64,000 bases of DNA from Faecalibacterium hattorii (lineage in GTDB: Bacteria > Bacillota > Clostridia > Oscillospirales > Ruminococcaceae): contig NZ_PRLC01000003.1 of NCBI RefSeq assembly GCF_003287455.1, positions 62,001 through 126,000 on the forward strand. The letters run 5' to 3'. The notes beneath the pieces are model-generated. The model did not search any database and was not told the origin of the DNA. It saw only the letters and a program-made list of their open reading frames with translations. Each line of letters begins with the position of its first letter. Positions within the stretch are counted from its first letter, which is position 1. Shown here piece after piece: positions 2,187-27,635 of this stretch. The position numbers and the translations under genes were made by a program.

Positions 2187-2203
2187 TCGAACATTCTACC
2201 TTT

Positions 2204-2233
2204 CCCCGTGCCCTCCGGCACGGGGATTTTTTT
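2204..2233 (+). terminator. Intrinsic terminator after the FAD dehydrogenase
   Basis: A perfect 9-bp stem (CCCCGTGCC / GGCACGGGG) with a CTCC loop is followed by a run of seven T. Confidence 0.9.
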
Positions 2234-2304
2234 CATGCCCGTTTTCGACGATTTTTACAACACGGCGTTTTCCCGGTCTTGTTCCGTTTTCCTTGCGCAA
2301 ATAA

Positions 2305-2333
2305 TTGATTTTTCCCGAAAAAACTGCTACACT
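2305..2333 (+). promoter_or_regulatory. Sigma-A-type promoter for the RpiR regulator
   Basis: TTGATT and TACACT are separated by exactly 17 bp, 46 bp upstream of the regulator start codon. Confidence 0.65.
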
Positions 2334-2379
2334 AAGGAAAAATGAGATCGCTACAGAAACGTGAGGGAGGTTATTTTCT

Positions 2380-9808: not shown

Positions 9809-10558
9809 TTATAGCACCCAATTCGTCACCACCGCCAGAATGCTCAGATGGACGGGGTAGAACCCATAAAACGCCCACTTGACCCACTGGGGGCAGCGGC
9901 CCCGCTGGCCGTTATAGAACCAGATGAGCACAAAGGCCAGCGGGGCGGTCAGCTCGAACAGCATCATCACCGCACCGATGATGCACTGGTACTTCCGGTT
10001 GTTCCGGGTCAGGTAGAGCGCCACGATGAGCGCCACGCCGATGGCTCCGTAGTCCGTTTGCAGAAGCTGGGCAAGGACGACGCAGCCCAGCGCAGCAAGG
10101 CGGCCCTTCCATGCAATGTTCCCCTCGGCGTCCTGAAACTTCTGCATCAGCGCCATGGCCAGCACGCCCAGCGCCAGCGTCCAATAGACATTCTGGTTGC
10201 CCCAGTGGAAGGGCGTCCGGAAGAAGGCCATGTCAAAGGGGACCTCGCTGAGTAGTCCAAACAGGAACAGCCGCTCCACATAACGCTTCACATCGTGGGT
10301 GTGGAGGAAGCCCTCCACCAGCAGGAAGCAGAAGATGGGGAAAGCCAGCCGCCCGATGTAGCGCAGAACACGGTCCAGCTGGAGCAGCGATGCCGCAGCG
10401 GGGTCAGTCGAAAACGTACCGGACGCGATCAGCGGCACCAGAAGCCCTGCTTCAAGGCAGGAAGCCCCGATATGGTCGATGAGCATGGTGATGCAGGCAA
10501 TGAGCTTGAGCGTGGTCCCGCTCAGGCCCTGTCGTTTCTGTACTGGAAGTGTTTCCAT
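9809..10558 (-). CDS. TraX-family membrane protein
   Basis: This is a polytopic membrane protein of 249 residues. The early motif LKLIACITMLIDHIG is the hallmark of the TraX/acyltransferase-like family named for F-pilin acetylation. About seven hydrophobic segments follow and there is no signal peptide. Chromosomal Firmicutes copies are common and their substrate is unknown, so this does not imply conjugation. GTAGGAGGG lies seven bases before the ATG. It diverges from the LysR gene across a 164-bp gap and ends in the terminator shared with the tRNAs. Confidence 0.82.
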   Translation of the reverse strand: METLPVQKRQGLSGTTLKLIACITMLIDHIGASCLEAGLLVPLIASGTFSTDPAAASLLQLDRVLRYIGRLAFPIFCFLLVEGFLHTHDVKRYVERLFLFGLLSEVPFDMAFFRTPFHWGNQNVYWTLALGVLAMALMQKFQDAEGNIAWKGRLAALGCVVLAQLLQTDYGAIGVALIVALYLTRNNRKYQCIIGAVMMLFELTAPLAFVLIWFYNGQRGRCPQWVKWAFYGFYPVHLSILAVVTNWVL

Positions 10559-10599
10559 TCAAAATCCCTCCTACTGCCCCGAAATCAGGCCGAAAATGC

Positions 10600-10628
10600 T
10601 TGACAGAACGGACGCAGAATAGTAAAAT
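10600..10628 (+). promoter_or_regulatory. Promoter of the LysR regulator
   Basis: A perfect TTGACA, a 17-bp spacer and TAAAAT lie about 95 bp before the start codon. Confidence 0.75.
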
Positions 10629-10722
10629 CAAGAAGATAATTGAACTATCTCAAACGAAAGATGAAAAAGATTCACAGAGAATGAAGCGTCTCCGAACGAG
10701 AAAACGGAAGGAGGCATGGGAT

Positions 10723-11598
10723 ATGACGCTGTTTTCCTATGAAATTTTTGACGCAGTTGCGCGGCAGGGCAGTTTCAATAAGGCCGCCCAGCAGCTGCAC
10801 CTGACCCCGTCCGCCATCAGCCACGCCATTGCGGTGATGGAGGCAGAACTCGGCTTCACCTTATTCAACCGCGGCAAAAACGGCGTCACCATGACCAGCT
10901 ACGGCTCATCCATCTACCCGTCCATCCGTGCCGTCCTGAACAGCGACGAGGCGCTGCAGCAGAGCATCGCGCGGCTGAACGGTCTGGAGAAGGGCAAGGT
11001 CAAGCTGGGCGTGTTCAACTCCGTCTGTGCCGGGTTGCTGCCGGATATCCTCAAGGGCTTTTCCGCCCAGTTCCCCCAGATCGAGATCGAGGTCTATCAG
11101 GGTACTTACGACGACGTGAAGGAGTGGCTGCGCACTGGGCAGGTGGATATGGCATTCCTGTCCAACAACTGCCGGGATGAATTCACCCTGACCGAGCTGT
11201 TCCGCGAGCCTCTGCTCTGCATCACCCCGATGGACTGGCCCGAACCGCCCCGCGGCGTGATGACGCCGGAGCTGATGAACGGCCAGAACTTTGTCGTCCA
11301 GTGGGACGCCACCGACGCCGAGATGCGCCAGTTCCTCAAGAAATACTCCATCGCCACCGAGCGCCGCTGCCACGTCATCGACGACCAGTCCAACATCGCC
11401 ATGGTGGAGGCCGGCCTCGGCATCTCCATCATGCCCCGGATGCTGCTGCGCAAGTGCACTGCCGCCGTCAAGATCTACCCCATCCAGCCGGAGGAAGACC
11501 GCGTGGTCGGCTTGGCTGTCCAGCGCCCCACCGCGATGGCACCGGCTGTGGAGCAGATGTTCCACCACATTGTCGAGTATTGTCAGAACCTCGACTGA
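10723..11598 (+). CDS. LysR family transcriptional regulator
   Basis: This is a 291-residue LysR-type regulator. The winged helix-turn-helix is at about residues 4-62 (GSFNKAAQQLHLTPSAISH), followed by a periplasmic-binding-like effector domain (about 88-285). I chose MTLFSYEIFD because AAGGAGG lies nine bases upstream; the longer frame has no comparable site. LysR proteins often control a divergent neighbour, here the TraX gene, but that is only positional inference. A leader of about 90 bp separates the promoter from the start, and a terminator follows. Confidence 0.87.
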   Translation: MTLFSYEIFDAVARQGSFNKAAQQLHLTPSAISHAIAVMEAELGFTLFNRGKNGVTMTSYGSSIYPSIRAVLNSDEALQQSIARLNGLEKGKVKLGVFNSVCAGLLPDILKGFSAQFPQIEIEVYQGTYDDVKEWLRTGQVDMAFLSNNCRDEFTLTELFREPLLCITPMDWPEPPRGVMTPELMNGQNFVVQWDATDAEMRQFLKKYSIATERRCHVIDDQSNIAMVEAGLGISIMPRMLLRKCTAAVKIYPIQPEEDRVVGLAVQRPTAMAPAVEQMFHHIVEYCQNLD

Positions 11599-11617
11599 AC
11601 TTTATCATAACATACTG

Positions 11618-11646
11618 AGCCGGTGTTTACAACATCGGCTTTTTTC
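11618..11646 (+). terminator. Terminator of the LysR gene
   Basis: The stem GCCGGTGTT / AACATCGGC with a TAC loop is followed by T6. Confidence 0.88.
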
Positions 11647-11656
11647 TTTTTGCGGA

Positions 11657-11685
11657 TTGTATCCCACCCGGAGATACGGTATACT
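11657..11685 (+). promoter_or_regulatory. Promoter of the lipase-like gene
   Basis: TTGTAT and TATACT are separated by 17 bp, 26 bp upstream of the start codon. Confidence 0.65.
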
Positions 11686-11711
11686 AAGGGTGCAATAAGG
11701 AGGGAACGACC

Positions 11712-13268
11712 ATGAAACGACGGGATTTTTGCAAAGCACTGGGGCTTTCGGCGGCGTGCGGGGCGCTCTGGCCACAGTTGAGTGTCCGCGCAGCGGCGCA
11801 GCCGGTGGGCCGCGCCGTTCCGGACGGGAACTACACCCTGCCGTTCCTCAGCATCCTGAGCAATACGGACGTCAGCCACGATTTCTATTATTCGGAGAGC
11901 TTCTTCGACCACCCCGCCACCGAGTATGACCACAAACTCGCCTTGGTGACGCTGGGTATGGTCATGGCGGCCTTCAACTCCGCCGTCAGCGCCTACCGCT
12001 ACTGGGTCAACGGCGAGGCGGGCCGGGAGCTGAATCTTGCCGCCTCCTACGAACTGCTGGGCTTTGGGGATGCGGTCTACTACAACTACGACATCGACAC
12101 CGGCAAGGCGGGGGATTTCGTCGGCTACTCGCTGGCCCGCAAGAGCTTCGACTACAACGGCCAGAAGCGCACCCTCGTGGCGCTGATGCTGCGGGGCGGC
12201 GGCTACGGCGGCGAGTGGACCAGCAACCTGCACACCGGTGCCACCAACGCCCACTACGGCTTCACCACCCCCGTGGCGGCGGTGTACGCCTCCCTGAAAG
12301 CCTACCTCGCCAAGATCGAGGCGGAGGGGGAGCCGGGCGAAGTCAAACTCTGGGTCGGCGGGTACAGCCGCGGTGCCATTGTGGCCAACATGACCGCCGC
12401 CAAAGCGCTCCGTACCCTGCCGCTGCTCCAGAAGGAGAACTGTTTTGTCTACACCTTCGCCACCCCGGCTGCGCTGACCGCCGCCGACCAGCCCGACTTG
12501 CAGCAGGACTTCGACAACAACCACGCTGCTGACGGCTCCCTGCGCACGACGTGGGCCGAGAGCAACATCTTCAACCTGATCTCCAGCGGCGATCTCGTGC
12601 CCCGCGTCCTCCCCGCCGACTGGGGCTATTACCGCAACGGCAACGACCGCTTCCTGCCCGCTTCCAAAAACAAGGACGAGCTGGCCGGCCTTGACGCGCT
12701 GGGCGCGTCCTACGGGCCGGTGCCGCTCCAGATCAGCGAGCTTGCCACCGCCGAGGACACCAGCGCCGTCATCGCGGCGGTGGAGAAGTTCTGCGGCACC
12801 AAGGAGAACTTCCACGAGAAATACGAAGCCGCCCTGATGGACATGGTGCAGTGCGCCTTTATCCGCACCGAGGACGAGGTGCTGGCCGGGAAGATCCTCT
12901 CGGACGAGGAGATCATCACCCGGCTGGAGAGCCTGTCCAATATGCACCAGTTTGACTTCTGGCGGATCACCACCTGCGTCTTCGCGGCGTCCAAGATGAG
13001 CCGCCCCATTTTGGAGCGGTTCGGCCAGAACGTGCCGCTGATGGCCCAGCAGATCATCATCCCGGTGCTGGCAGTCGGCCTGTGCTACGACATCGAGACC
13101 GACATCGTTAAGGTAGTGGCCCAGTACATCGTGAAGCTCGTCTCCATGCGGGGCGAGCTGGACAGCGTCCTCCGCGCCGCCTACTGCCACGAGGGCGAGA
13201 ACTACTTGGCTCTGATGGAATATTACGCGCCGGAGGAGCACGGCATGGAGCCCTTCACCCGGACCTGA
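11712..13268 (+). CDS. Exported lipase-like alpha/beta hydrolase
   Basis: This is a probable secreted serine hydrolase of 518 residues. The N-terminus (MKRRDFCKALGLS, ending near AAA-QP at about 31) is a signal peptide with a twin-arginine-like RRDF. The nucleophile elbow is GGYSRGA (near residue 218), matching GxSxG of class 3 lipase-like folds. The following FATPAAL and later acidic and His-containing blocks fit the rest of such a fold, but I cannot place the Asp and His with certainty. The substrate is unknown. It has its own promoter, and an interspersed repeat serves as terminator. Confidence 0.72.
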   Translation: MKRRDFCKALGLSAACGALWPQLSVRAAAQPVGRAVPDGNYTLPFLSILSNTDVSHDFYYSESFFDHPATEYDHKLALVTLGMVMAAFNSAVSAYRYWVNGEAGRELNLAASYELLGFGDAVYYNYDIDTGKAGDFVGYSLARKSFDYNGQKRTLVALMLRGGGYGGEWTSNLHTGATNAHYGFTTPVAAVYASLKAYLAKIEAEGEPGEVKLWVGGYSRGAIVANMTAAKALRTLPLLQKENCFVYTFATPAALTAADQPDLQQDFDNNHAADGSLRTTWAESNIFNLISSGDLVPRVLPADWGYYRNGNDRFLPASKNKDELAGLDALGASYGPVPLQISELATAEDTSAVIAAVEKFCGTKENFHEKYEAALMDMVQCAFIRTEDEVLAGKILSDEEIITRLESLSNMHQFDFWRITTCVFAASKMSRPILERFGQNVPLMAQQIIIPVLAVGLCYDIETDIVKVVAQYIVKLVSMRGELDSVLRAAYCHEGENYLALMEYYAPEEHGMEPFTRT

Positions 13269-13269
13269 C

Positions 13270-13434
13270 AAAAAAAGAGGCTGCTGCACAGAACTCCCTC
13301 AGTCACGGCTTCGCCGTGCCAGCTCCCTCTCGGAGGGAGCCTTGGCGTAACGGTAAGCTGTGAAAGCCTCCCTCTCAGAGGGAGGTGTCATCGCGTCAGC
13401 GATGACGGAAGGAGTTGTGCAACAGCCTCTTTTT
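13270..13434. repeat. Interspersed palindromic repeat, copy 2, acting as a bidirectional terminator
   Basis: The outer arms AAAAAGAGGCTGCTGCACA and TGTGCAACAGCCTCTTTTT would close a long hairpin with T runs at both ends, between two convergent genes. The core carries CACGGCTTCGCCGTG, GCTCCCTCTCGGAGGGAGC and ATCGCGTCAGCGAT and matches the other copies. Confidence 0.88.
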
Positions 13435-13446
13435 CGTATTCAGAAA

Positions 13447-14388
13447 TTACAGCATCTCGTGGACGGTCTTGCAGATGGTGGCTGCATCGAGACCGTACAG
13501 CTTCAGCAGATCCCACGCGGGGCCGGAGCAGCCGAACTTGTCCTGCACGCCGATGCGGCGGACGGGGGTGAGCTGCTTCTCGCTGAGCAGGGCGCAGACG
13601 GCCTCGCCCAGACCGCCGATGACGCTGTGCTCCTCGGCGGTGATGACCTTGCCGCATTCCTTGGCAGCCTTGAGGATGATCTCCTCGTCCAAGGGCTTGA
13701 TGGTGTGGATGTTGATGACGCGGGCGTGGATGCCCTCGGCGGCCAGCTGTTCGGCGGCCAGACGGGCTTCGTTGACCATCAGGCCGGTGGCGATGATGGC
13801 GATATCATCGCCCTCGGTGAGCTGCTCGCCCTTGCCGATCTCAAAGTGGTAGTTGGCTTCGTCGTGGAAAACGGGAACCGCCAGACGGCCAAACCGCAGA
13901 TAGACCGGGCCCTGCATCGCGTAAGCGGCGCGGACCGCAGCGCGGGCCTCCACGTCATCGGCGGGGCAGATGACGGTCATGCCGGGCAGACTGCGCATCA
14001 GCGCGAAGTCCTCGCAGCACTGGTGGGAAGCGCCGTCCTCGCCGACGGAGATGCCGCCGTGGGTCGCACCGATCTTGACGTTCAGGTGGGGGTAGGCGAT
14101 GGAGTTGCGGATCTGCTCAAAGGCACGGCCCGCAGCAAACATGGCAAAGCTGGAAACGAAGGGGGTAAAGCCCATGGTGGACAGGCCGGCGGCCACGCCC
14201 ATCATGTTGCCCTCGGCAATACCGCAGTCAAAGTGGCGGTCCGGGTAAGCCTTGCGGAACATGCCGGTCTTGGTGGCGGCTGCAAGGTCTGCATCCAGCA
14301 CCACGATGTCGTCGTGACCCTCGGCGGCCAGTTCCTTCAGCGTGTTGCCGTAGCTGTCACGGGTTGCGATCTTCTTCACATCTGCCAT
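13447..14388 (-). CDS. Transketolase, C-terminal subunit
   Basis: These 313 residues correspond to the pyrimidine-binding and C-terminal domains of transketolase. Visible blocks are the pyrimidine-domain GIAEGNMMGVAAGL, which holds the catalytic Glu for thiamine diphosphate, and the ATGLMVNEA / EEHSVIGGLG C-terminal domain. With the N-terminal subunit it transfers two-carbon units between sugar phosphates in the non-oxidative pentose phosphate pathway. Its ATG is one base after the stop of the upstream half, and GAGGAGG lies inside that gene's end, so the two are translated together. Split transketolases are common in Firmicutes and archaea. Confidence 0.93.
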   Translation of the reverse strand: MADVKKIATRDSYGNTLKELAAEGHDDIVVLDADLAAATKTGMFRKAYPDRHFDCGIAEGNMMGVAAGLSTMGFTPFVSSFAMFAAGRAFEQIRNSIAYPHLNVKIGATHGGISVGEDGASHQCCEDFALMRSLPGMTVICPADDVEARAAVRAAYAMQGPVYLRFGRLAVPVFHDEANYHFEIGKGEQLTEGDDIAIIATGLMVNEARLAAEQLAAEGIHARVINIHTIKPLDEEIILKAAKECGKVITAEEHSVIGGLGEAVCALLSEKQLTPVRRIGVQDKFGCSGPAWDLLKLYGLDAATICKTVHEML

Positions 14389-14389
14389 C

Positions 14390-15241
14390 TTACTTGTCCT
14401 CCTCTTCCAGCGCGGCGTAGGCTGCGTTCAGTTCCTTCATGGCGATCTCATATTCCTCGTCATTGGGACCCTTGCCGTGCCAGTCAACGGCGTTCTCCAT
14501 AAAGGAAACGCCCTTGCCCTTGAGGGTATCCATCACGATGCAGGTGGGCTTTTCGGTCTCTGCGTGGAAGGCCTTGATGGCGGCTTCGATCTGGTCGTAG
14601 TCGTGGCCGTTGATGGTGATGACGTTGAAGTTGAACGCCTTCAGTTTTTCCTCCAGCGGTGCGCTGTTCATGACCGTCTCGGTGGTGCCGTCGATCTGCA
14701 GGTGGTTGCGGTCAAGGAAGACGCAGAGGTTCGACAGGCCGTAGTGGGCGGCGAACATGAAAGCCTCCCAGCACTCGCCCTCTTCCACCTCGCCGTCGCC
14801 GACGATGGCGTAAACGCTCAGGCCCTTGCCCGCGTGCTTGGCGCCCAGCGCCATACCGGCGGCGGCGCTGATGCCCTGACCCAGACTGCCGGTGGACATA
14901 TCCACACCCGGCACGCTGTTCATGTTGGGGTGGCCCTGCAGATAGCTGCCGATCTTGCGCAGGGTCTTGAGGTCCTCCACCGGGAAGAAGCCGCGCTCAG
15001 CCAGTGCTGCGTACAGGCCGGGGGCTGCGTGGCCCTTGGAGAGCACCAGACGGTCCCGATCCGGAGCCTTCGGAGCCTTCGGATCGACGTTCATCTCCAC
15101 GAAATAGAGGTAGGACAGCACTTCCGCGATATCCAGACTGCCGCCCGGATGGCCGCACTTGGCGCTGTGAGTGCCCTCGATCACGCCCATGCGGATGTGA
15201 CAGGCGTGCTTTGCTAGGGTGAGTTTTTCTGCATTTGTCAT
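14390..15241 (-). CDS. Transketolase, N-terminal (thiamine diphosphate-binding) subunit
   Basis: These 283 residues form the diphosphate-binding half of transketolase. The GDGEVEEGECWEA segment (near residue 150), followed by LDRNHLQIDG, is the metal/thiamine diphosphate motif. HIRMGVIEGTHSAKCGHPGG near the N-terminus carries substrate- and cofactor-contacting histidines. It is the first gene of a two-gene operon with the C-terminal half. GGGAGG precedes the ATG, and a consensus-like promoter lies about 90 bp upstream. It diverges from the ECF transporter gene. Confidence 0.93.
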   Translation of the reverse strand: MTNAEKLTLAKHACHIRMGVIEGTHSAKCGHPGGSLDIAEVLSYLYFVEMNVDPKAPKAPDRDRLVLSKGHAAPGLYAALAERGFFPVEDLKTLRKIGSYLQGHPNMNSVPGVDMSTGSLGQGISAAAGMALGAKHAGKGLSVYAIVGDGEVEEGECWEAFMFAAHYGLSNLCVFLDRNHLQIDGTTETVMNSAPLEEKLKAFNFNVITINGHDYDQIEAAIKAFHAETEKPTCIVMDTLKGKGVSFMENAVDWHGKGPNDEEYEIAMKELNAAYAALEEEDK

Positions 15242-15329
15242 GATGGTCCTCCCGTATGAACCTCAGCGTTTGCATCGGAGTGTGTGCGCAGGGAGGCCGT
15301 TACGCCTCGATGCGCTATTTTTCAATTCT

Positions 15330-15358
15330 ATATTATCTATTCTGTGCAAAAACGTCAA
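15330..15358 (-). promoter_or_regulatory. Promoter of the transketolase operon
   Basis: On the minus strand, TTGACG and TAATAT are separated by 17 bp. Confidence 0.65.
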
Positions 15359-15444
15359 GGTTCTTTCGTGAAAATGTACATCACTTGGCAAAACCGCTTT
15401 CAAATTCGCCGGTTTTTGTGGAAATTGCGGCCCGTTCCTTCCCC

Positions 15445-15473
15445 TTGACATCCCCCTTACCATCTGCTATAAT
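15445..15473 (+). promoter_or_regulatory. Consensus sigma-A promoter of the ECF S-component gene
   Basis: A perfect TTGACA, a 17-bp spacer and a perfect TATAAT start a leader of about 150 nt that contains the attenuator described below. Confidence 0.88.
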
Positions 15474-15479
15474 TTTCAC

Positions 15480-15631
15480 AATTCCGGCAGGAAGCCGGGC
15501 TGAGGGGCTGAAGCCCATTTTTTCCATCGCTTTTTTGAAACAGACACCATGAAGGGGTCTGCCTTTGGCGTACCATGCCAAGGGCGGGCCTCTTTTTTGT
15601 TGTGTTCTGTCACCAGAAGGAGGAACCATTG
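15480..15631 (+). promoter_or_regulatory. Attenuator-type leader (riboswitch candidate, class unknown)
   Basis: The leader has two small hairpins: CCGGC/GCCGG at 15484-15498 and GGGCT/AGCCC at 15505-15516. The loop bases GGAA of the first could pair with TTCC near 15522-15525. Downstream, CAGACACC at 15541-15548 can pair with GGGGTCTG at 15554-15561. That competes with a 17-bp terminator stem at 15553-15593 (the right arm pairs with wobbles), which is followed by T6. The two pairings exclude each other, so the layout fits transcription attenuation of the transporter gene. I do not recognise a known aptamer consensus. Confidence 0.6.
15553..15598 (+). terminator. Conditional intrinsic terminator inside the ECF leader
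   Basis: Arms of 17 nt (AGGGGTCTGCCTTTGGC / GCCAAGGGCGGGCCTCT) close on a seven-base loop and are followed by T6, upstream of the ribosome site of the transporter gene. Confidence 0.8.
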
Positions 15632-16168
15632 ATGAAGACCAAACCCAACTCTCCCGCACGGAACATCGTGCTGGCCGCGCTGTTTCTGGCGCTGGCCTTT
15701 GTCCTACCCATGATCACCGGCCATGTGCCCCAGATCGGCAACATGCTCTGCCCCATGCACTTCCCGATGCTGCTGGCGGGCTTTGTGCTGGGCGGGCCGT
15801 GGGGCCTTGCCCTCGGCTTTATCGCGCCGCTGCTCCGCTCGGTGCTGTTCGGGATGCCCCCCCTGTACCCCATCGCCATCTCCATGGCCTTTGAGCTGGC
15901 CACCTACGGCGCCGTCAGCGGCTGGATGTACAAAAAAGTCCGGCACACTCTGCCCATGATGTATGCCGCCCTCGCCACCGCCATGGTGGCGGGCCGCCTT
16001 GTCTGGGGCGCAGTGCGGTTCGTGCTGGCGGGCCTGTCCGGCTCGGCCTTCCCCTTCTCGGCCTTCCTGTCCGGTGCGCTGCTCACCGCTGTGCCCGGCA
16101 TCATCGCCCAGCTCATCCTCATCCCGCTCATCCTGACTGCTTTGCAGAAGGCAAAGTTCATGGACTGA
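15632..16168 (+). CDS. ECF transporter S component (vitamin/cofactor uptake)
   Basis: This is a small membrane protein of 178 residues with about six hydrophobic segments. It matches the size and texture of substrate-binding S components that work with the shared EcfT-EcfA-EcfA' energizing module, which is not encoded here. Conserved-looking blocks are the helix-one end LPMITGHVPQIG, the loop PMHFPMLLAGF and LLRSVLFGMPP. The sequence resembles S components sometimes called PanT-like, but the vitamin is not proven. AGAAGGAGG precedes the chosen ATG. The attenuator leader suggests control by the transported cofactor or a derivative. Confidence 0.8.
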   Translation: MKTKPNSPARNIVLAALFLALAFVLPMITGHVPQIGNMLCPMHFPMLLAGFVLGGPWGLALGFIAPLLRSVLFGMPPLYPIAISMAFELATYGAVSGWMYKKVRHTLPMMYAALATAMVAGRLVWGAVRFVLAGLSGSAFPFSAFLSGALLTAVPGIIAQLILIPLILTALQKAKFMD

Positions 16169-16185
16169 GCCGTTTTCCCCGAAAC

Positions 16186-16231
16186 AAAAAAGGGGCCGCC
16201 GCAAGTTTTCGCTTGCAGCGGCTCCTTTTTT
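16186..16231 (+). terminator. Terminator of the ECF S-component gene
   Basis: A near-perfect stem around GCCGCCGCAAG / CTTGCAGCGGC is flanked by A6 and T6. Confidence 0.85.
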
Positions 16232-16266
16232 CTATCATCAAAGCGATTTGCTTTTTATTTGCTCAG

Positions 16267-16306
16267 AAAAATCCGTTCCACTTTCCCACAGGAACTAGGA
16301 TTTTTT
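16267..16306. terminator. Terminator of the 26-codon peptide gene
   Basis: The paired arms AAAAATCC / GGATTTTT and GTTCC / GGAAC (2-nt bulge) start three bases beyond the peptide stop codon. T runs occur on both strands. Confidence 0.75.
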
Positions 16307-16308
16307 CA

Positions 16309-16389
16309 TTAGCCAGCGTAGAAATCGATACCAGCGTTGACAGAGCAAACCTCACCGATGATCTTCGCGATGTTCTTCAGAATCTTCAT
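16309..16389 (-). CDS. Small peptide gene, 26 codons, unrecognised
   Basis: The peptide reads MKILKNIAKIIGEVC followed by SVNAGIDFYAG. Its first half is a basic amphipathic segment with Lys at 2, 5 and 9 and aliphatic residues between. Its second half has one cysteine (C15) and ends in two aromatic residues and Gly. GAAGGAG lies about eight bases before the ATG, and a terminator directly follows the stop. The strong terminator of sstT upstream isolates it from that gene, so it seems to be its own transcript. The layout recalls signalling, toxin or leader peptides, but no modifying enzyme, transporter or receptor lies beside it. No function is assigned. Confidence 0.6.
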   Translation of the reverse strand: MKILKNIAKIIGEVCSVNAGIDFYAG

Positions 16390-16626
16390 AATTTTTATCT
16401 CCTTCCCTCTTGGGATGGCCATATTATGCCATTCATTTATGAAGAAGAAGCAAATAGATTATGAATATTTCGTGAATTCAGCGTTATATTTTTGACGTTC
16501 TCGCGTCGATTGTTCAGCTCGCACAAAAGGTTTTTCCTCGTCAGCAAAGTTCTTGTATACATGAACAAGTACATGGTCATTCCATTATTCTGAGGATAAA
16601 TCGCCTTCCTGTCCGGTCTTTTTCGC

Positions 16627-16664
16627 AAAAAGGGCTCCCGCAAAATCGCCTTTTGCGGGAGCCC
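16627..16664 (-). terminator. Terminator of sstT
   Basis: The stem GGGCTCCCGCAAAA / TTTTGCGGGAGCCC is followed by T5 on the minus strand. Confidence 0.9.
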
Positions 16665-16683
16665 CAATGGTTCAATCTTCGGT

Positions 16684-17937
16684 TTACTTTTTACCACCCA
16701 AGAACTCCGGCAGGGACTTGCCCTCCTTGAGCCACTGGTGATACTCGGCGGTGGCAGCGAACTCCACGTCGCCGGCGGAGTTCAGGGCCGTTTCCACAGA
16801 GTCCTGCACCACGCCGATGATGAAGCCGACGCCAACGACCTGCATTGCGATATCATTGGAGATACCGAACAGGGAACAGGCCATGGGGATCAGCAGCAGG
16901 GAGCCGCCCGCCACACCGGAAGCACCGCATGCGCCCAGCGCCGACATGACCGACAGCAGGATGGCGGCGGGCAGGGAGACCTGCAAGCCCAGCGTGTTGG
17001 CTGCGGCCAGCGTCATGATGGTGATGGTGATGGCCGCGCCGTCCATATTGATGGTCGCGCCCAGCGGGATGGAGACGGAGTACATATCCTTATCCAGCCC
17101 CAGCTTTTCGCACAGGGTCATATTCACAGGGATATTCGCCGCCGAACTGCGGGTGAAGAAGGCGGTCAGGCCGGACTCCTTCAGGCAGCGGAACACCAGC
17201 GGATAGGGGTTGCAGTGCAGATAGATGAAGATGATCAGCGGGGAGACGATCAGCGCCATGAACAGCATGGTACCGACAAGCAGTGCCAGCAGTCTGCCGT
17301 ACTGGGTGAAGATGGACAGGCCGTTGCTGACCACATTGGTATAGACCAGACCCATGATGCCGAAAGGCGCCAGATTGATGATCCAGCGTACGATCTGGGA
17401 CACCGCGTCCGCCGTGTTGGCAAGGAAGACCTTGGTGCTCTCCGCACCGTACTTCTTCATAGCCAGACCGAACAGGCACGCCCAGAACAGGATGCCGATG
17501 TAGTTGCCATTGAGCAGCGCGCTCACGGGGTTGGCCACAAAGTTGGTCAGCAGGGTGTTCAGCACCTCACCGAGGCCCTGCGGCACCACTTCCGACTCCG
17601 CAGCCTCTGCCAGAACGATGGTCTGGGGGAACAGAAAGCTCGTAATGACCGCAATGGCTGCCGCCAAGAAGGTGGTGAGCATATACAGCCAGATGACCGT
17701 GCCGAACCGGCGGTCCAGCTTGGAGGTGCCCTGCGCCAATGCGCTGGCCACGATGACGAAGACCAGAACCGGCGCAATGCCTTTCAGGGCACCCACGAAC
17801 AGGTTGCCGAATTCTTCCAGCCAGCCCGCACCGGGGACCAGAACCGCCAGCACTGCGCCGACGATGAGGCCCACCAAGATCCGCAGGATCAGGCTGGTGG
17901 CATTGTACTTTGCCACGATTGCCTTCAGCGTTTTCAT
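16684..17937 (-). CDS. sstT: Serine/threonine:sodium symporter
   Basis: This is a 417-residue dicarboxylate/amino acid:cation symporter (DAACS) family carrier with about eight transmembrane helices and two re-entrant loops. The serine-rich loop TRSSAANIPVN (about 265-275), the NMDGAAI motif (about 297) and the C-terminal GVVQDSVETALNSAGDVEF place it with SstT rather than glutamate carriers. It imports serine and threonine with sodium. GAGGAG precedes the ATG. It stands alone between its own promoter and terminator. An inverted repeat overlaps the expected transcription start. Confidence 0.92.
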   Translation of the reverse strand: MKTLKAIVAKYNATSLILRILVGLIVGAVLAVLVPGAGWLEEFGNLFVGALKGIAPVLVFVIVASALAQGTSKLDRRFGTVIWLYMLTTFLAAAIAVITSFLFPQTIVLAEAAESEVVPQGLGEVLNTLLTNFVANPVSALLNGNYIGILFWACLFGLAMKKYGAESTKVFLANTADAVSQIVRWIINLAPFGIMGLVYTNVVSNGLSIFTQYGRLLALLVGTMLFMALIVSPLIIFIYLHCNPYPLVFRCLKESGLTAFFTRSSAANIPVNMTLCEKLGLDKDMYSVSIPLGATINMDGAAITITIMTLAAANTLGLQVSLPAAILLSVMSALGACGASGVAGGSLLLIPMACSLFGISNDIAMQVVGVGFIIGVVQDSVETALNSAGDVEFAATAEYHQWLKEGKSLPEFLGGKK

Positions 17938-17994
17938 ATCAAAACACTCCTCTACCTAAGTTGTACGCCCATTGCGCACACATTTTCCTATCCC

Positions 17995-18041
17995 TCTACA
18001 CGGAACATGTAGATTATAGCCCTTATTCTTCAAAAAGTCAA
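17995..18041 (-). promoter_or_regulatory. sstT promoter with an operator-like inverted repeat
   Basis: On the minus strand, TTGACT and a perfect TATAAT (18013-18041) are separated by 17 bp. Directly downstream, TCTACA and TGTAGA form an inverted repeat with a 7-bp gap, overlapping the likely start site. It may bind a repressor (inference). Confidence 0.7.
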
Positions 18042-18151
18042 AGACTTTAGCCGATTTTTCTGGCTTTTCATCTAACAATGGGGAAGCACGAGGATTTTTC
18101 ACTGTCCGCATACAAAGCACAGATTCCAAAAAATCGCTGTAGTATGTCAAG

Positions 18152-18224
18152 AAAAAAGGCCCTGTCCGAAAATCGGGCGGTGCGCCATACGGCGCAGACG
18201 CTTTTCCGATTTTCGGGCAGGGCC
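18152..18224 (-). terminator. Large terminator of the dipeptide epimerase operon
   Basis: Nineteen-base arms (CCGATTTTCGGGCAGGGCC and its partner) enclose a second hairpin TGCGCC/GGCGCA. T6 follows on the minus strand. Confidence 0.85.
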
Positions 18225-18233
18225 GATTTTCAA

Positions 18234-19331
18234 TCAGGCCAGATAGTTCACTTTACCGGGCACGAATCCCTCAATGCCCATACCGGGGGCATCGGAGACG
18301 GTGATGTTCTTTTCGTTGAAAACGGCACCGCCGAGGATGTGGTCCTCGCTGCACAGCACCGGGCCGTCGAGGTCGATCTTGGTGATGATCTTCTTGGCGC
18401 ACGCCAGTTCCACGGCGGCGTTGACCGAGACCTTCGCTTCCAGCATGCAGCCGATCATGCACTCGACGCCGTAGACCTCCGCCGCCGCCGCGATGCGCAG
18501 GGCGTTGGTGATGCCGCCGCACTTCATCAGCTTGATGTTCACGAGGTCGGCCGCGCCGGTCTGCATGATCTTGAGGGCATCCGCCGGGCTGAACACGCTC
18601 TCGTCCGCCAGAACGGGGACGTCGGCGTGGCGGGTGACGTACTGCATCCCTTCAAGGTCGGCGGCGGGGACGGGCTGTTCCACGAACTCGATGTCCAGCC
18701 CCGTATCCTGCATCTGGTTCAGGATACGGACGGCCTGTTTCGCGTTCCACGCCTGATTGGCGTCGATGCGGATGCAGACATCCTTTCCCACAGCCTCGCG
18801 GACGGCGGCCAGCCGGGCCACATCCAGCTCCGGGTCGATGCCGACCTTGACCTTCAGGCAGTCGTAGCCGCGGGCGATGGCAGTGCGGGCATCCCGCGCC
18901 ATCTCCTCCGGCGGGTTCACACTGATGGTGACGTCGGTGACGATGTTCTTCCGGGCCCCGCCCAGCATCCGGTAGACGGGGGCGTTGTACTTCTGGCCCA
19001 GCAGGTCCCACAGGGCCATATCCACCGCCGCCTTGGCGCTGGTGTTGTGGACGAGGGCCTTCTGCACGGCGGCGGTCAGGTCCTCGAACTCGTCGAGGTC
19101 GCGGCCCAGAATCGCCGGGGCGATGTGGTCTTGGATGGCCCCGATGATGGCCCCGGCGGTGTCGCCGGTGATGACGCCGGTAGGAGGTGCTTCGCCGTAG
19201 CCCACAGCACCAGTATCGGTGTGGAGCTCCACGATGACATCTTCGACGCTGTTCACCGTGCGCAGCGCCGTCTTGAACGGCACCCGCAGCGGGGTGGAAA
19301 TGCGGCCCAGCCGCACCTGCGTGATCTTCAT
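18234..19331 (-). CDS. L-Ala-D/L-Glu (dipeptide) epimerase, enolase superfamily
   Basis: This enolase-superfamily enzyme has 365 residues. The catalytic lysine pair is in CLKVKVG. The metal ligands are in RIDANQAW, FVEQP and ADES, and the second acid/base lysine is in KLMKCGG. Dipeptide epimerases invert the D-Glu of L-Ala-D-Glu from peptidoglycan to give L-Ala-L-Glu. The dipeptidase encoded 16 bp upstream would then split the product, so the pair fits murein peptide salvage. The start MKITQVRLG has GAGGAGG upstream. Substrate choice within the family varies, so the peptide is inferred from the neighbour. Confidence 0.85.
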   Translation of the reverse strand: MKITQVRLGRISTPLRVPFKTALRTVNSVEDVIVELHTDTGAVGYGEAPPTGVITGDTAGAIIGAIQDHIAPAILGRDLDEFEDLTAAVQKALVHNTSAKAAVDMALWDLLGQKYNAPVYRMLGGARKNIVTDVTISVNPPEEMARDARTAIARGYDCLKVKVGIDPELDVARLAAVREAVGKDVCIRIDANQAWNAKQAVRILNQMQDTGLDIEFVEQPVPAADLEGMQYVTRHADVPVLADESVFSPADALKIMQTGAADLVNIKLMKCGGITNALRIAAAAEVYGVECMIGCMLEAKVSVNAAVELACAKKIITKIDLDGPVLCSEDHILGGAVFNEKNITVSDAPGMGIEGFVPGKVNYLA

Positions 19332-19347
19332 AGTTCGCAGCCTCCTC

Positions 19348-20736
19348 TTATTCCAACGGCAGATTGGCCAGCTTGACCATTGCCTGTGCGATGATCTGGG
19401 CGTTCTGCACCAGACGATCCAGATCGATGAACTCATCCGGCTGGTGCTCCGTCACGGGGTCGCCCTCGAACAGGGGGCCGAAGGCCACCGTGTTGGGCAG
19501 CACTTTCGCATACGTACCGCCGCCGATGCACTTGGGCGGGGCGTGGTCTGCGGTGGCCGTGCGGTAGGTCTCCAGCAGAGCCTTCACCAGCGGGGCCGTC
19601 TCCGGGTAGTAGAGCTTTTCCTTGTGGACGGACTGTTCCAGCTTCCAGCCCGCATTCTCAAATGCGGCCTTCACGGCGGGCTGGCAGTCCTCCACGGTCT
19701 TGGTGACGGGATAGCGGTAGTTCAGCTTGACCCGGATGCTGCCGCTGTCGCCCTCGATCAGGCCGAGGTTGCAGCTCATAGGGCCGGAGAGGTCATCTTC
19801 CAGCCGCTTCCCCAACAGCCGTGCGCCGTAGGGATCCAAGCCGAACTTTTCGGCAAGGAAGCTCACCACCCGCCGGGTGCTGCCCGTCAGCGGGAGCCGG
19901 TTCAGGTAGAGCATCAGCAGCCCGATGGCGTTTTTGCCCTGTTCCGGATGGCTGCCGTGGGCCGAAATGCCCTCGGCCTCCACCTTCCAGCCGTCCTCCG
20001 TCCGGGTGACGGTGATGCCCTCAGCTTCGGGCAGGGAAATGCACGCCGGGCCGGTCAGCTCCGCCTCCGCATGGGCGGGCACCACATTGCCCGCCACGCC
20101 GCCGCGCACCGACTTGATCTGCAGCTTGCCGTCCTGCCGGAGCGAGATGCCATACCACTCGTTCAGGATGCCCTTTTCTCCGTTGATCAGCGGGTACTCG
20201 CCGTCGGGCGTGAAGCCCAGCACCGGCAGCTCCCCGCCGTGCTCGCGGTAATAGAAGACGTCGCGGTCGTTCGTCTCCTCGTTCAGGCCGAAGAGGAGGC
20301 GCACCCGGCGGTCCAGCGGGATGCCGAGATCCCGGATGGCCTTCAGCGCAAAGAGGCTGGCCACCACCGGGCCCTTGTCGTCGATGGCGCCGCGGCCAAA
20401 AAGTTTGCTGCCCACGATCTCCGCGCCGTAGGGCGGGTGATGCCAGCCCTCACCTTCGGGCACCACGTCCAGATGGCCCAGCACCGCCACCATCTCGTCG
20501 CCGGAGCCGATCTCGCACCAGCCGATGTAGCGGTCAAGGTCGGTGGTCTCAAAGCCGAGTTCATGGCAGAGGGTCAGCGCCTCGGTGAAACAGGCGTCCA
20601 CGTCCGCGCCAAAGGGTTTGCCGGGCAGGGGAGAAGCCTCCACGCTGGGCTTGCGGATCAGCCGCTGCAATGCTGCGATCATCTCCGGCCGCAGGGCGGC
20701 AACGGCATCATCCAGCTCCTTGTTCCATTTGCTCAT
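19348..20736 (-). CDS. M20 dipeptidase (PepV/Sapep-like)
   Basis: This is a 462-residue zinc dipeptidase. Metal ligands are in VLGHLDVVPEG (His and Asp), GRGAIDDKG and the Glu pair in GLNEETND, with a late His in TEHQPDEFID. The lid domain lies at about residues 180-310. PepV-type enzymes cleave unblocked dipeptides with broad range. It lies between a GNAT gene (its ATG overlaps that stop by 4 bp) and the dipeptide epimerase, indicating one operon for dipeptide salvage. The product is cytoplasmic with no signal peptide. The start MSKWNKELD is fixed by the overlap. Confidence 0.9.
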   Translation of the reverse strand: MSKWNKELDDAVAALRPEMIAALQRLIRKPSVEASPLPGKPFGADVDACFTEALTLCHELGFETTDLDRYIGWCEIGSGDEMVAVLGHLDVVPEGEGWHHPPYGAEIVGSKLFGRGAIDDKGPVVASLFALKAIRDLGIPLDRRVRLLFGLNEETNDRDVFYYREHGGELPVLGFTPDGEYPLINGEKGILNEWYGISLRQDGKLQIKSVRGGVAGNVVPAHAEAELTGPACISLPEAEGITVTRTEDGWKVEAEGISAHGSHPEQGKNAIGLLMLYLNRLPLTGSTRRVVSFLAEKFGLDPYGARLLGKRLEDDLSGPMSCNLGLIEGDSGSIRVKLNYRYPVTKTVEDCQPAVKAAFENAGWKLEQSVHKEKLYYPETAPLVKALLETYRTATADHAPPKCIGGGTYAKVLPNTVAFGPLFEGDPVTEHQPDEFIDLDRLVQNAQIIAQAMVKLANLPLE

Positions 20737-21236
20737 CGTGCCGCTCCTTCCCGCGAAAGGCGCTGGTAAGCGATGCGGGGCGTACCGTCGGCCACATGGA
20801 TGATGCCGCACTTCGTGAAGCCGTTCTTCTCCAGAATGTGCTGCATGATCTTGTTATCAGCGTGGGTGTCGGCCCGCAGACTCTCGCAGTGCTCCAAGCA
20901 CCAGTTAATGATGTCCGATGCCACACCGGGGCGCTTGCCCGCCGAGGCCAAGCGGTGAATGGTGCCGTAAGGCAGGGTGTCGTTCAGCCACTGGCCGTCC
21001 TCGATTTTGGCATAGGTCGGGTCTGGGCCAAGGATGAAGGCGAACGCACCCTCCAGCACGCCGTTGTGCAGATACACGAACAGGCGGTTGGTGTCGATGT
21101 CCTCCTCGATCAGCTCCTGCGGGGGGAAGTTCCGGCCCCATTGGGTCGGGTTGCCGCTGTCGGCCATGGTTTGCCGGGCGCGGGCATAAATTTGCATGAT
21201 AGCGTCCAGATCAGAGCGTCTTGCTCCACGAAACAT
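20733..21236 (-). CDS. GNAT family N-acetyltransferase
   Basis: This 167-residue acetyltransferase has the GNAT core. GKRPGVASDIINWCLEH is the acetyl-CoA loop and helix, and ILEKNGFTKCGIIHV closes the fold. The family transfers acetyl groups from acetyl-CoA to amines. The target may be the amino terminus of a peptide or amino acid, given that the operon encodes a dipeptidase and an epimerase, but this is positional inference. Two ATG codons (21242 and 21236) follow AGAGAGG, and I prefer the second because of spacing. Confidence 0.75.
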   Translation of the reverse strand: MFRGARRSDLDAIMQIYARARQTMADSGNPTQWGRNFPPQELIEEDIDTNRLFVYLHNGVLEGAFAFILGPDPTYAKIEDGQWLNDTLPYGTIHRLASAGKRPGVASDIINWCLEHCESLRADTHADNKIMQHILEKNGFTKCGIIHVADGTPRIAYQRLSREGAAR

Positions 21237-21337
21237 GTTCATCCACCCTCTCTTTGGATGCGCGAAAACCGACACATCCAGTCTATTGGTCTCATTTTAT
21301 CACAATCCGCACCGAAATTCCAGTTTTTGCCGCACAC

Positions 21338-21374
21338 AAAAACGGCCCTCTCCGCCCGAAAGCGGAAAGGGCCG
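21338..21374 (-). terminator. Terminator of the AraC-type gene
   Basis: The stem CGGCCCTCTCCGC / GCGGAAAGGGCCG, with wobble, is followed by T5 on the minus strand. Confidence 0.82.
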
Positions 21375-21386
21375 CAAGCGTCAGCT

Positions 21387-21770
21387 TCACGCGCGGGTGC
21401 GGCTCGCGCGGGTATTGCGGTACTCGCGGGGGCTCTGGCCGTAGCGCTCATGGAACAGGCGGTAAAAATAGCTCGTATTTTCGTACCCTACCTGCGTGAT
21501 GATCTGCTGGATATTCAAATCACTGCGGCGCAGCAGCCGCGCCGCCGTCTCCATCCGGTGCTTCTGGAGCAGCTCCTTATAGGTCTTGCCGGTCTGGGCG
21601 CGGACGCACTCGCTGACATAGGCCAGCGAAACGCCGTAAGTACGCGCCACATTGGAGAGGCTTGCTTCGCGATAGTTCTGGGTGATCTCCTGTAAAGCCG
21701 CTTGGACCAGCGCTTCCCGGCTGACCGTTTCGCCGCGGGATTCCAGCGGAAAATTCTGCATCTGTTTCAT
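21387..21770 (-). CDS. Single-domain AraC/XylS-type regulator
   Basis: This 127-residue protein is little more than an AraC-type DNA-binding domain. Two helix-turn-helix units are visible (ASLSNVARTYGVSLAYVSEC and LNIQQIITQVGYENTSYFYR), ending in the usual FHERYGQSPREYR. No sensory domain is present, so it resembles stand-alone members such as SoxS or MarA, whose activity is set by their amount. GGAGG precedes the ATG. It is monocistronic with its own terminator. The target is unknown. Confidence 0.85.
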   Translation of the reverse strand: MKQMQNFPLESRGETVSREALVQAALQEITQNYREASLSNVARTYGVSLAYVSECVRAQTGKTYKELLQKHRMETAARLLRRSDLNIQQIITQVGYENTSYFYRLFHERYGQSPREYRNTRASRTRA

Positions 21771-25205: not shown

Positions 25206-26096
25206 TCACTCATTCACAGGGACGGCACCGGCAGTACGGATGAGGTCGGCGGCGTCGGTGCTGGTGGCAAAGTCGAAGAAGGCCTGTGCCTGTTCGGACA
25301 GGGTGACGGACTTGTTGGTGACGAAGACGAAGGGGCGCTGGACCTCATAGCTGCCGTCCTTGACGGTCTCTTCGCTGCACTCCACGCCGCCGACAGTGAC
25401 CATCTTCACGGTGTCGCCCACGGCGGAGAGGGAAGCGTAGCCGATGGCGAGGGGGTTGGCCTCCACCGCGCTGATGACGGCGCCGGTGGCGGTCAGCTCC
25501 TGCGCATACTTGCAGGAATCCTTCACGTCCACGATGCTCTCGAAGCCGTCGCGGGTGCCGGAACCGGCCTCACGGCCGATCAGAACGATCTCGCCGTCGT
25601 CGCCGCCCACATCGGCCCAGTTGGTGATCTCGCCGGTGAACATCTGCTTGAGCTTGTCCACGGTCAGGTCCTCGACCTTGCTGGCCTTGTTCACGATGAT
25701 GGCGATGCCGTCCAGTGCGATAACGGTGCCGTCCACATCGTTCTTCTCCTCGTCCTTCAGGCCACGGGAGGACAGGCCAATGTCCAGCGTCTTATCGGTG
25801 GCACCGGTGATGCCGGCGCCGGAACCGGTGGGGTCATAGCTGACGGTGACGCCCGGCTCCACTTCTGCAAAGCCTTCGGTCAGGGCAGCGATGACGTTCT
25901 TCATGGAAGTGGAACCGCCGGTGGCCACATTGCCGGACAGGCTGCCAGAAGCCGTGGAAGCCGCCGCAGAAGAAGCGGTGGATGCCACGGAAGAGGCAGC
26001 GGCGGAAGAAGCGGAACCGCCGCAGGCGGTCAGGGCAGCGGCAGCAGCGGCTGCACCACAAACGGCAAGGAACGAACGACGCGTGATCTTTTTCAT
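25206..26096 (-). CDS. pstS: Phosphate-binding lipoprotein PstS
   Basis: This 296-residue solute-binding lipoprotein has the N-terminus MKKITRRSFLAVCG followed by the lipobox LTAC at about residues 24-27. An Ala/Ser linker (about 30-55) precedes the binding domain. Phosphate-contact blocks include GSTSMKN, DPTGSGAG and REAGSGTRDGFE. The RRSFL motif before the lipobox looks twin-arginine-like. It is the first gene of pstSCAB-phoU. GGAGG lies before the ATG at 26096; an earlier in-frame ATG overlaps that site. Confidence 0.93.
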   Translation of the reverse strand: MKKITRRSFLAVCGAAAAAAALTACGGSASSAAASSVASTASSAAASTASGSLSGNVATGGSTSMKNVIAALTEGFAEVEPGVTVSYDPTGSGAGITGATDKTLDIGLSSRGLKDEEKNDVDGTVIALDGIAIIVNKASKVEDLTVDKLKQMFTGEITNWADVGGDDGEIVLIGREAGSGTRDGFESIVDVKDSCKYAQELTATGAVISAVEANPLAIGYASLSAVGDTVKMVTVGGVECSEETVKDGSYEVQRPFVFVTNKSVTLSEQAQAFFDFATSTDAADLIRTAGAVPVNE

Positions 26097-26175
26097 GATG
26101 TTTTCCTCCAAAATAACACCGGAGCTTTTGCCCGGTCTCGATTTTCTTTTTTGTGTTTTCCCTTGGAACGCCTTG

Positions 26176-26307: not shown

Positions 26308-26847
26308 TTACTGGGTGATAATAATGGTATTGGCTTCTTTCCGATAGACCTTGCAGCTCAGATAAGTTTTGTTATCCTGCGGATTCGGGAAGAACAAGAT
26401 CTGCACATAATCAAACGAGATATCCTTGCCCGTTCCGCACAGATGACCCTTCTCATACTGGCCGCGATTCAGCGTGCGCTTTTCCATCGCATTCCAGCTC
26501 TTGTTTTTCTTCAGGAACGCCATCGTCCCCGAATCCATCGTCAGATCTTTCGAGCCATTCACCCGCAGCTTGAAGCTGCCATTGGCCGGGTCGATGGGAA
26601 TGCCCGCAGCGCTGCCATTATTGATAAGCACTTCCGGAACCAAATAGAACGTACCGTCCGAAGCATACCCATAGGACAGCGAACGAACCGTCATTTTGAT
26701 CTCTCTCAGTTCGGCAGTATCATTCAACCCCTTTGCATTTGCAACCAGATCCCCACTGCCACAAGCCGTCAGCCCCGCCGCCGAAACAGCCAGCGCCGCG
26801 GCCGCAGCACTCTTCAGAAATACACGGCGGGAAAATTTCAGTTCCAT
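26308..26847 (-). CDS. Putative lipoprotein with DUF4352-like beta domain
   Basis: This 179-residue protein has a twin-arginine-like start (FSRRVFLK) and the lipobox LTAC near residue 28. The remainder is strand-rich (TVRSLSYGYA, LVPEVLINNGS, SFKLRVNGSK, YLSCKVYRKE) and resembles the immunoglobulin-like DUF4352 or telokin-like domains of Firmicutes lipoproteins. The role is unknown. It lies 28 bp after a related lipoprotein gene in the same direction, so the two form an operon, perhaps after duplication. AGGAGAG precedes the ATG. Confidence 0.68.
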   Translation of the reverse strand: MELKFSRRVFLKSAAAAALAVSAAGLTACGSGDLVANAKGLNDTAELREIKMTVRSLSYGYASDGTFYLVPEVLINNGSAAGIPIDPANGSFKLRVNGSKDLTMDSGTMAFLKKNKSWNAMEKRTLNRGQYEKGHLCGTGKDISFDYVQILFFPNPQDNKTYLSCKVYRKEANTIIITQ

Positions 26848-26875: not shown

Positions 26876-27469
26876 TTATTTCCGGGCAGAGGTAACGCTT
26901 CCGTCTGCATTCCGGTTCATCACAAAGGTGGAAGTATTGCCTTTCAGGTTGAAGGTGAACTCCAAGCTGCTCCAGTTTTTGTTGACATGGGCTTCGCCCT
27001 CGGGCTGGAAACAGATATAACCCGCCTCTGCCTTATTCAGATCCTTGCCCGGCCCATAGGTCTTGGTGCCGTTTGCATCGAACAGCGGGGTGTACTTGCC
27101 CAAACCGCTCACATTTGCTGCCTTTTTCGGGTCCAGAACGACCTTTGCCTTGTGGCCGTCGATCGTTGCGCTGGTGATGTCGCTTGCCTTGAAGGTGACC
27201 GTCTCATTGGTCAGATTCTTGACTTGGAATTCGACAGCCAGCAGCACCAGCTCTTCCCCATACGACCACGGCTGGTACTGATTGCTCAGGGCATACATAA
27301 AAGAGCCTGCGCTGTCTGCCGCATGGCCCTTCTGGTCACCGTACTGCTGGAAGAACGAGCCGAGCGCATTATCGACCGCATCGCAGCCGCTCAGTGCACC
27401 CGCTGCACCCACAGCCAGCGCCATCGCGCCGGTGATCTTCAAGAACGAACGCCGAGTCATCATTTCCAT
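26876..27469 (-). CDS. Putative lipoprotein, DUF4352-like
   Basis: This 197-residue lipoprotein has a MTRRSFLKITG start and the lipobox LSGC near residue 29. The mature part has the strands LVLLAVEFQVKNLTNETVTF and YICFQPEGEAHVNKNW. The first of these is the conserved core I associate with DUF4352 domains. The start MEMMTRRSF is chosen because AGGAGG lies eight bases upstream; the open frame extends far further without a ribosome site. It is the first gene of a two-lipoprotein operon. No ligand is known. Confidence 0.7.
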   Translation of the reverse strand: MEMMTRRSFLKITGAMALAVGAAGALSGCDAVDNALGSFFQQYGDQKGHAADSAGSFMYALSNQYQPWSYGEELVLLAVEFQVKNLTNETVTFKASDITSATIDGHKAKVVLDPKKAANVSGLGKYTPLFDANGTKTYGPGKDLNKAEAGYICFQPEGEAHVNKNWSSLEFTFNLKGNTSTFVMNRNADGSVTSARK

Positions 27470-27575
27470 TGTTTTTTTCCTCCTGTTGATCTGTGCCCCA
27501 GCGGGCACTCCGCAAATGATCTCTCTGTCAAGAATACCCATATTCTTTCGTTCTGTCAAGCCTCTTTTTTTCAGC

Positions 27576-27613
27576 AAAAACCGCCCGTCTGTACACAGCG
27601 TACAGGCGGGCGG
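27576..27613 (-). terminator. Terminator of the nag operon
   Basis: A perfect 14-bp stem (CCGCCCGTCTGTAC and its complement) is followed by T5 on the minus strand. Confidence 0.9.
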
Positions 27614-27635
27614 CGGGGGATTTAGGATTTCGGGG

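Follow-up and report, generated by a model that had tools for sequence, protein, structure and literature searches.

The sequence analysed here (the window) is a 64,000 nt stretch of a 2.79 Mb Faecalibacterium hattorii genome, G000 in our set. It contains a gap flanked by a gene for the serine/threonine transporter SstT (NCBIfam PRK13628; 16684-17937, minus strand) and a convergent gene for the S-component of an ECF transporter (ECF-S; Pfam PF12822). On the minus strand of this gap, at 16389..16309 (C36:78312 in the genome), there is an open reading frame that translates to MKILKNIAKIIGEVCSVNAGIDFYAG, 26 codons ending in a TAA stop, with AAGGAG (16404..16399) located 9 nt before the ATG. A sequence-only reading of this DNA had proposed that a ribosome site, an ATG, 26 codons and a stop are packed here and fenced off by the terminators of the neighbours. 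All of these elements are present, and the unit is bounded on both sides by the hairpins of the two neighbouring genes (SstT, 16665..16626; ECF-S, 16195-16222). The peptide gene is absent from the existing annotation and, from the comparisons below, looks real. The features are as follows.

16626..16665, minus strand: terminator-like hairpin of the upstream SstT gene, with a T-run (read from the sequence)
16522..16563, minus strand: upstream conserved blocks CATGTATACAAGAACTTT (16563..16546) and GGAAAAACCTTTTGTG (16537..16522), a possible second regulator site (three-species alignment)
16438..16476, minus strand: direct-repeat array in an 11-bp register, a probable activator site, with half-sites starting at 16476 (TTCACG), 16465 (TTCATA), 16454 (TTTGCT, poor) and 16443 (TTCATA); the same geometry is found upstream of tat operons
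16423..16428, minus strand: -10 box CATAAT within the block TGGCATAATATGGCCATCC, which is identical in G000, G014 and G003
16399..16404, minus strand: ribosome site AAGGAG (read from the sequence; kept in G014, lost in G003)
16309..16389, minus strand: the 26-codon open reading frame with its TAA stop (translation; the G014 copy has 88% protein identity)
16267..16305, minus strand: 3' hairpin with A-run and T-run ends, a probable terminator (folding; two compensatory pairs against G014; absent from the terminator scan)
16195..16222, no single strand: bidirectional terminator-like hairpin closing the convergent ECF-S gene (terminator scan)

There is an alternative in-frame ATG 11 codons upstream, which would give a product of 37 aa. 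This longer start is unlikely because the ATG abuts the -10 box and because, in G014, a 1-nt insertion that follows it breaks the frame. The 26-codon start is therefore the better one.

A matching terminator had also been claimed. The hairpin lies directly after the stop codon and is real as a fold (16305..16267; -12.1 kcal/mol, z -2.0, with 7 of 200 shuffles equally good). In G014 the fold is -14.4 kcal/mol (z -2.7) and the stem is kept by two double-sided changes, A-U to G-C and C-G to U-A. Its role as a terminator is only likely, because the hairpin is missing from the terminator scan and its T-run is taken up in pairing with the A-run of the stem.

The peptide was found in two of the 31 genomes of the genus at E up to 1: G000 and its sister species G014. 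The ECF-S gene is present in 29 of the 31 and is adjoined by SstT (within a flank of about 1.5 kb) in nine. Among these nine, G000 and G014 carry the peptide, G003 has the promoter alone, and the remaining six (G002, G011, G015, G027, G028 and G030) have neither promoter nor peptide despite the SstT/ECF-S pair. In G014 the frame, the ribosome site, the stop and the hairpin are all intact; in G003 the control region persists without the frame or the ribosome site. The sequence-only reading had named as its test that close relatives conserve the frame, the ribosome site and the stop, and this holds in G014 and fails in G003 and in the six species with neither element. In two of those six, G028 and G030, the gap (L009 and L010) contains an inverted-repeat element, GGGCTGTTGCCAA...TTGGCAACAGCCC, that looks like a small mobile repeat.

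An open reading frame of 26 codons is not by itself beyond chance, so the case that this one is more than chance is comparative. The G000 and G014 frames are identical at 74 of 81 nt (91%), as against 79% for the aligned upstream DNA (about 208 bp). There are seven base differences, five of them in third positions; four are silent and three change a residue (I3V, N6K and K9Q, all in the helix part described below). When the seven changes are placed at random, the probability of so few residue changes without a stop is 0.034 and that of at least five third-position changes is 0.008. Three of the four silent changes fall within residues 10-26, which are identical in the two proteins, and this argues for constraint on the tail. 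Because only two sequences carry the frame the coding test is weak (P = 0.03), and we regard the coding evidence as good but not strong. The frame could instead have arisen by chance in a decaying intergenic region, and it was not found in 29 of the 31 genomes (E up to 1). However, the frame, ribosome site, hairpin and promoter are all kept in G014, and we consider a chance frame very unlikely.

The same comparison bears on whether the locus is mainly a regulated small RNA, its frame being either incidental or no more than a leader. In favour of this, three species keep the control region and two the frame. Against this, there is the third-position bias and the kept frame in G014, the fold of 16240-16430 is no more stable than that of shuffled sequences (z -0.06), and Rfam at the gathering score yields two tRNAs only in the window and no family in the gap. 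Additionally, there is no gene in the same direction directly downstream, the next gene being convergent. A small RNA is distinctly unlikely. A known RNA in the gap was also considered and rejected; the nine sub-threshold matches there, of which the best (E 0.035) falls on the SstT hairpin, look like chance.

Searches beyond the genus used the G014 peptide as query in 396 genomes of the family, where 39 had a match at E up to 1 with the source genome included; the best other match (E 0.069) lies inside an 875 aa open frame. In 394 genomes of the order, 88 had a match at E up to 0.5, again including the source genome; the best two after it (1.9e-4 and 6.3e-4) fall within open frames that are 405 and 299 aa long. 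A DNA pattern for the C-terminus matched 19 stretches in the genome_contigs set of species genomes, from which the source genome is possibly absent; one is from a Lachnospiraceae, none is from the genus or family, and going by their titles they were taken as chance. Three patterns gave no match in viral contigs, six Pseudomonas matches of 29 bases in phages were taken as chance, and there was no match in plasmids. The two order-level matches inside long frames aside, the sequence comparisons yield no credible relative beyond G014, and the peptide appears to be lineage-restricted. Neither NCBIfam nor Pfam has a family that matches it (E up to 10), and three fragments of it had no match in a full-text literature search; it may already be in a small-peptide catalogue as a prediction.

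About 140 bp upstream of the frame are conserved in blocks across G000, G014 and G003. The block TGGCATAATATGGCCATCC occurs once in each of these genomes and nowhere else among the 31 at up to two mismatches. Within it CATAAT is a fair -10, and a promoter scan found no -35 box and made no sigma-70-type promoter call at the peptide gene. The direct-repeat array lies upstream, with 9 nt between its last half-site and the -10; of the four half-sites three are good and one, the third, is poor (3 or 4 mismatches). A pair of TTCATA half-sites is not rarer than chance (3 in the window against 1.26 expected). Three such half-sites in the spacing of the peptide promoter (up to three mismatches) occur once in the window, at the peptide promoter itself, against 0.03 expected from shuffles. 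Further upstream, CATGTATACAAGAACTTT (16546-16563, minus strand) is conserved in the three species with two bases changed in G014. It contains the palindrome TGTATACA and is possibly the operator of a second regulator.

Direct repeats of 11 bp close to a -10 are typical of the sites of OmpR/PhoB-type winged-helix activators; such sites take the place of a -35, and the distance from their end to the -10 is fixed. The peptide promoter has this layout: 11-bp direct repeats, a fixed distance to the -10 and no -35. SARP-type activators, which share the winged helix with the OmpR/PhoB type, are another option as binder of the TTCATA array. The likeness to known promoters of the OmpR/PhoB family, such as the PHO boxes of Streptomyces PhoP, described as 11-nt direct repeat units (PMC7866108), lies in the several half-sites and the 11-bp register. 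The difference is that we could match the TTCATA half-site to no named regulator and that a TTCATA array is lacking upstream of the window's pstS-like gene. Control by the phosphate (Pho) regulon had been considered because the repeats are similar to PHO boxes and the window contains pst-like genes; the pstS-like gene without an array speaks against it.

When the three-half-site pattern derived from the peptide promoter (up to three mismatches) was searched in the source genome there were three matches: the peptide gene, the promoter of the tat operon and a stretch after a SARP-like gene, the last of which has no -10 at that spacing. The SARP-like regulator (GAF, winged-helix and BTAD domains; L069:1501-1630 and 1632-2951, minus strand) is encoded on a 14-kb contig, with several TTTCATAACAC-type repeats just after it and an AgrB gene (C24:7836) on the same contig.

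We then extended the pattern to include the -10 (TTCATA-N5-TTCATA-N16-TTCATA-N10-ATA, up to two mismatches) and searched the 31 genomes of the genus, with the reversed pattern as a control. There were seven sites in four of the 31 genomes and none with the control. Three of the sites are in the SstT/ECF-S gap (G000, G014 and G003) and four are upstream of tat operons (G000, G014, G003 and G015), G015 having the tat site alone. TatA and TatC are encoded downstream of the array in all four genomes, preceded in G000, G014 and G003 by a TatB-like first gene. At the tat promoters the half-sites are kept while the surrounding sequence varies.

The tat genes of further species were sought in 20 stretches of 20 kb from G002, G028, G030 and G017, chosen by gene order. 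They fell within the sampled stretches in G030 only, and G002, G028 and G017 are thus uninformative on the array. The tat promoter of G030, a species in which no peptide was found, has a weaker array (4 mismatches over four half-sites) at the same 9-nt spacing. A model of the array plus the -10 run over 464,000 bases (the window and the 20 stretches, from four genomes) gave two hits, which were the peptide promoter, the source of the model and so a hit by construction, and the G030 tat promoter. With tat read in five species (G000, G014, G003, G015 and G030), the tat array is the wider feature, and the peptide gene looks like an addition to an existing tat regulon. The peptide cannot be a general Tat partner, because it is missing from G003, which has the promoter, and from G015 and G030, which have the tat array. 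We found no published account of Tat regulation in the Faecalibacterium group in a full-text literature search.

Four proteins encoded in the window (11712-13268, plus strand; 25206-26111, minus; 26308-26847, minus; and within 26876-27910, minus) have twin-arginine type N-termini (RRDFCK, RRSFLAV, RRVFLK and RRSFLK). One has a class 3 lipase domain and one reads like PstS. By these N-termini all four are possible Tat clients.

There is a related promoter in G003, where the gene of an OmpR-type response regulator (Response_reg and Trans_reg_C) has 11-bp repeats, TTTATC-N5-TTTATC-N8-TATAAT, before its own start (L124:1754-1821). The arrangement looks like self-activation and is similar in geometry to the tat and peptide promoters, and the pair suggests that the same layout is in use in the genus with other half-sites.

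In the peptide itself, residues 1-15 are significantly amphipathic if a helix is assumed (moment 0.67, shuffle P 0.0009 in G000; P 0.0016 in G014), which bears out the basic amphipathic start noticed earlier; the net charge of the whole peptide is +1. The differences between G000 and G014 are confined to this helix part, and the invariant residues 10-26 include the tail SVNAGIDFYAG, the C-terminus being CSVNAGIDFYAG.

The likeness to autoinducers that had been drawn from these traits is not supported for the AgrD kind. The peptide resembles AgrD (TIGR04223) in its shortness, its amphipathic start and a loose SVN..F.A seen by eye. It differs in having no match to the model (E up to 10), with which the AgrD of the same genome scores 42.8 bits as a positive control, no acidic, proline-containing tail after a cysteine core (it ends CSVNAGIDFYAG) and no adjacent agrB. 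The two AgrB genes of G000 are at C36:198108 and C24:7836, as against C36:78312 for the peptide. Co-occurrence with AgrB had been suggested as a check, and AgrB is present in 14 of the 31 genomes, namely both peptide carriers and 12 genomes without the peptide; AgrB therefore does not track the peptide. The AgrD of the source genome (L157:1166-1324, minus strand) is also present in G003 as an identical copy and in G014 as a related one, and its core, SVN..CF.AYQPDVP, bears a loose likeness to the tail of the peptide described here.

A Pfam scan of the 11 neighbouring proteins (window 9809-21770) found LysR- and AraC-type regulators and an M20 peptidase about 3 kb from the peptide gene; one protein (20733-21275) has no Pfam match at E up to 0.001. 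There is no AgrB, Rgg-type receptor, peptide exporter or recognised immunity gene among the 11. These neighbours bear on the possibility that the peptide is an exported signal of the pheromone type, whose basic N-terminus directs export and whose C-terminal 8-12 residues (NAGIDFYAG) are the mature form, which either is taken back up to reach a receptor in the cytoplasm or is detected at the membrane. The length, the basic start, the invariant aromatic tail and a promoter that looks activator-dependent would all suit such a signal. However, no receptor of the Rgg/RRNPP kind and no exporter is encoded among the 11 neighbours, though the M20 peptidase is close by, and the AgrD model that detects the AgrD of this genome does not detect the peptide. 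Signal types often diverge between species, and here the tail is identical in both. We consider a signal of this type unlikely.

In G003 a different gene, of 60 codons, lies under the same promoter as the peptide. Its product has relatives in G003 itself and in G026, with a weak match (0.17) inside a long frame in G017, in the genus search; a search of 297 family genomes gave matches in five (E 0.018-0.1). The family has no Pfam or NCBIfam match. Its proteins have 38-80 residues and a motif like TMM(D/N)AY...E(G/S) (L121:1501-1680, plus strand; L124:1399-1638, minus; L122:1492-1605 and 1694-1810, plus), of which the 80-mer has a leader-like EGG and is divergent beside the OmpR-type response regulator gene. 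The C-termini of the peptide and the G003 60-mer share a VNA..F.AG likeness by eye that is too short for a claim of homology.

That the same promoter stands above another small protein, with a paralogue that has a leader-like EGG, looks as if cargo had been exchanged. This would fit a leaderless membrane-active peptide directed against competitors, as would the basic amphipathic helix without a leader, a trait of leaderless bacteriocins and phenol-soluble modulins (by the moment, with a helix assumed). On the other hand the net charge is only +1, no adjacent exporter or immunity gene was recognised among the 11 neighbours scanned, the helix varies while the tail is fixed, and there is no relative on plasmids or, by the patterns tried, in viral contigs. 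An antimicrobial is in our view improbable. We have kept both the signal and the antimicrobial, because exchange of the product under one promoter is also expected of secreted peptides; any intracellular, signalling or antimicrobial role of the peptide is inferred.

Taken together, we tentatively favour, with a little less than even confidence, a real, lineage-restricted small gene that shares an OmpR/PhoB-type activator with tat and encodes an accessory peptide for envelope or secretion stress at the membrane surface. Since its promoter looks like that of the Tat genes, the product is probably not a signal for quorum sensing but a small peptide of the envelope. In this model a winged-helix activator for 11-bp direct repeats, putatively of the OmpR/PhoB type, would occupy the TTCATA array and recruit RNA polymerase to the -10 without a -35, and the same activator would probably drive the tat operon. 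The transcript, predicted from the -10 and the hairpin, would be about 150 nt long and would end at the hairpin just after the stop. The 26-residue product, once translated, would be helical and amphipathic from about residue 2 to residue 15 and would lie on the inner surface of the membrane, where the invariant tail SVNAGIDFYAG may contact a partner protein. It would be made together with the Tat machinery.

The peptide so described has parallels in known systems. MgrB is a small membrane peptide under two-component control, and ours is likewise very short and, by prediction, membrane-seeking and activator-driven; the likeness drawn here is one of traits. SpoVM is a 26-residue amphipathic peptide of sporulation. 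The peptide described here is equally long and likewise has one amphipathic helix, which may lie on a membrane, with no relation shown between the two.

A bolder proposal, which we regard as unlikely, is a regulon of two operons in which an envelope-sensing regulator makes Tat together with a dedicated 26-residue membrane peptide that tunes or protects it, the place of the peptide being taken by another small protein in one sister species. The tentatively favoured account of an accessory peptide co-regulated with tat turns an anonymous short open reading frame into a testable claim, namely that one activator has two targets and that one of these is the Tat translocase. Small peptides made together with a translocase would be good candidates for its regulators.
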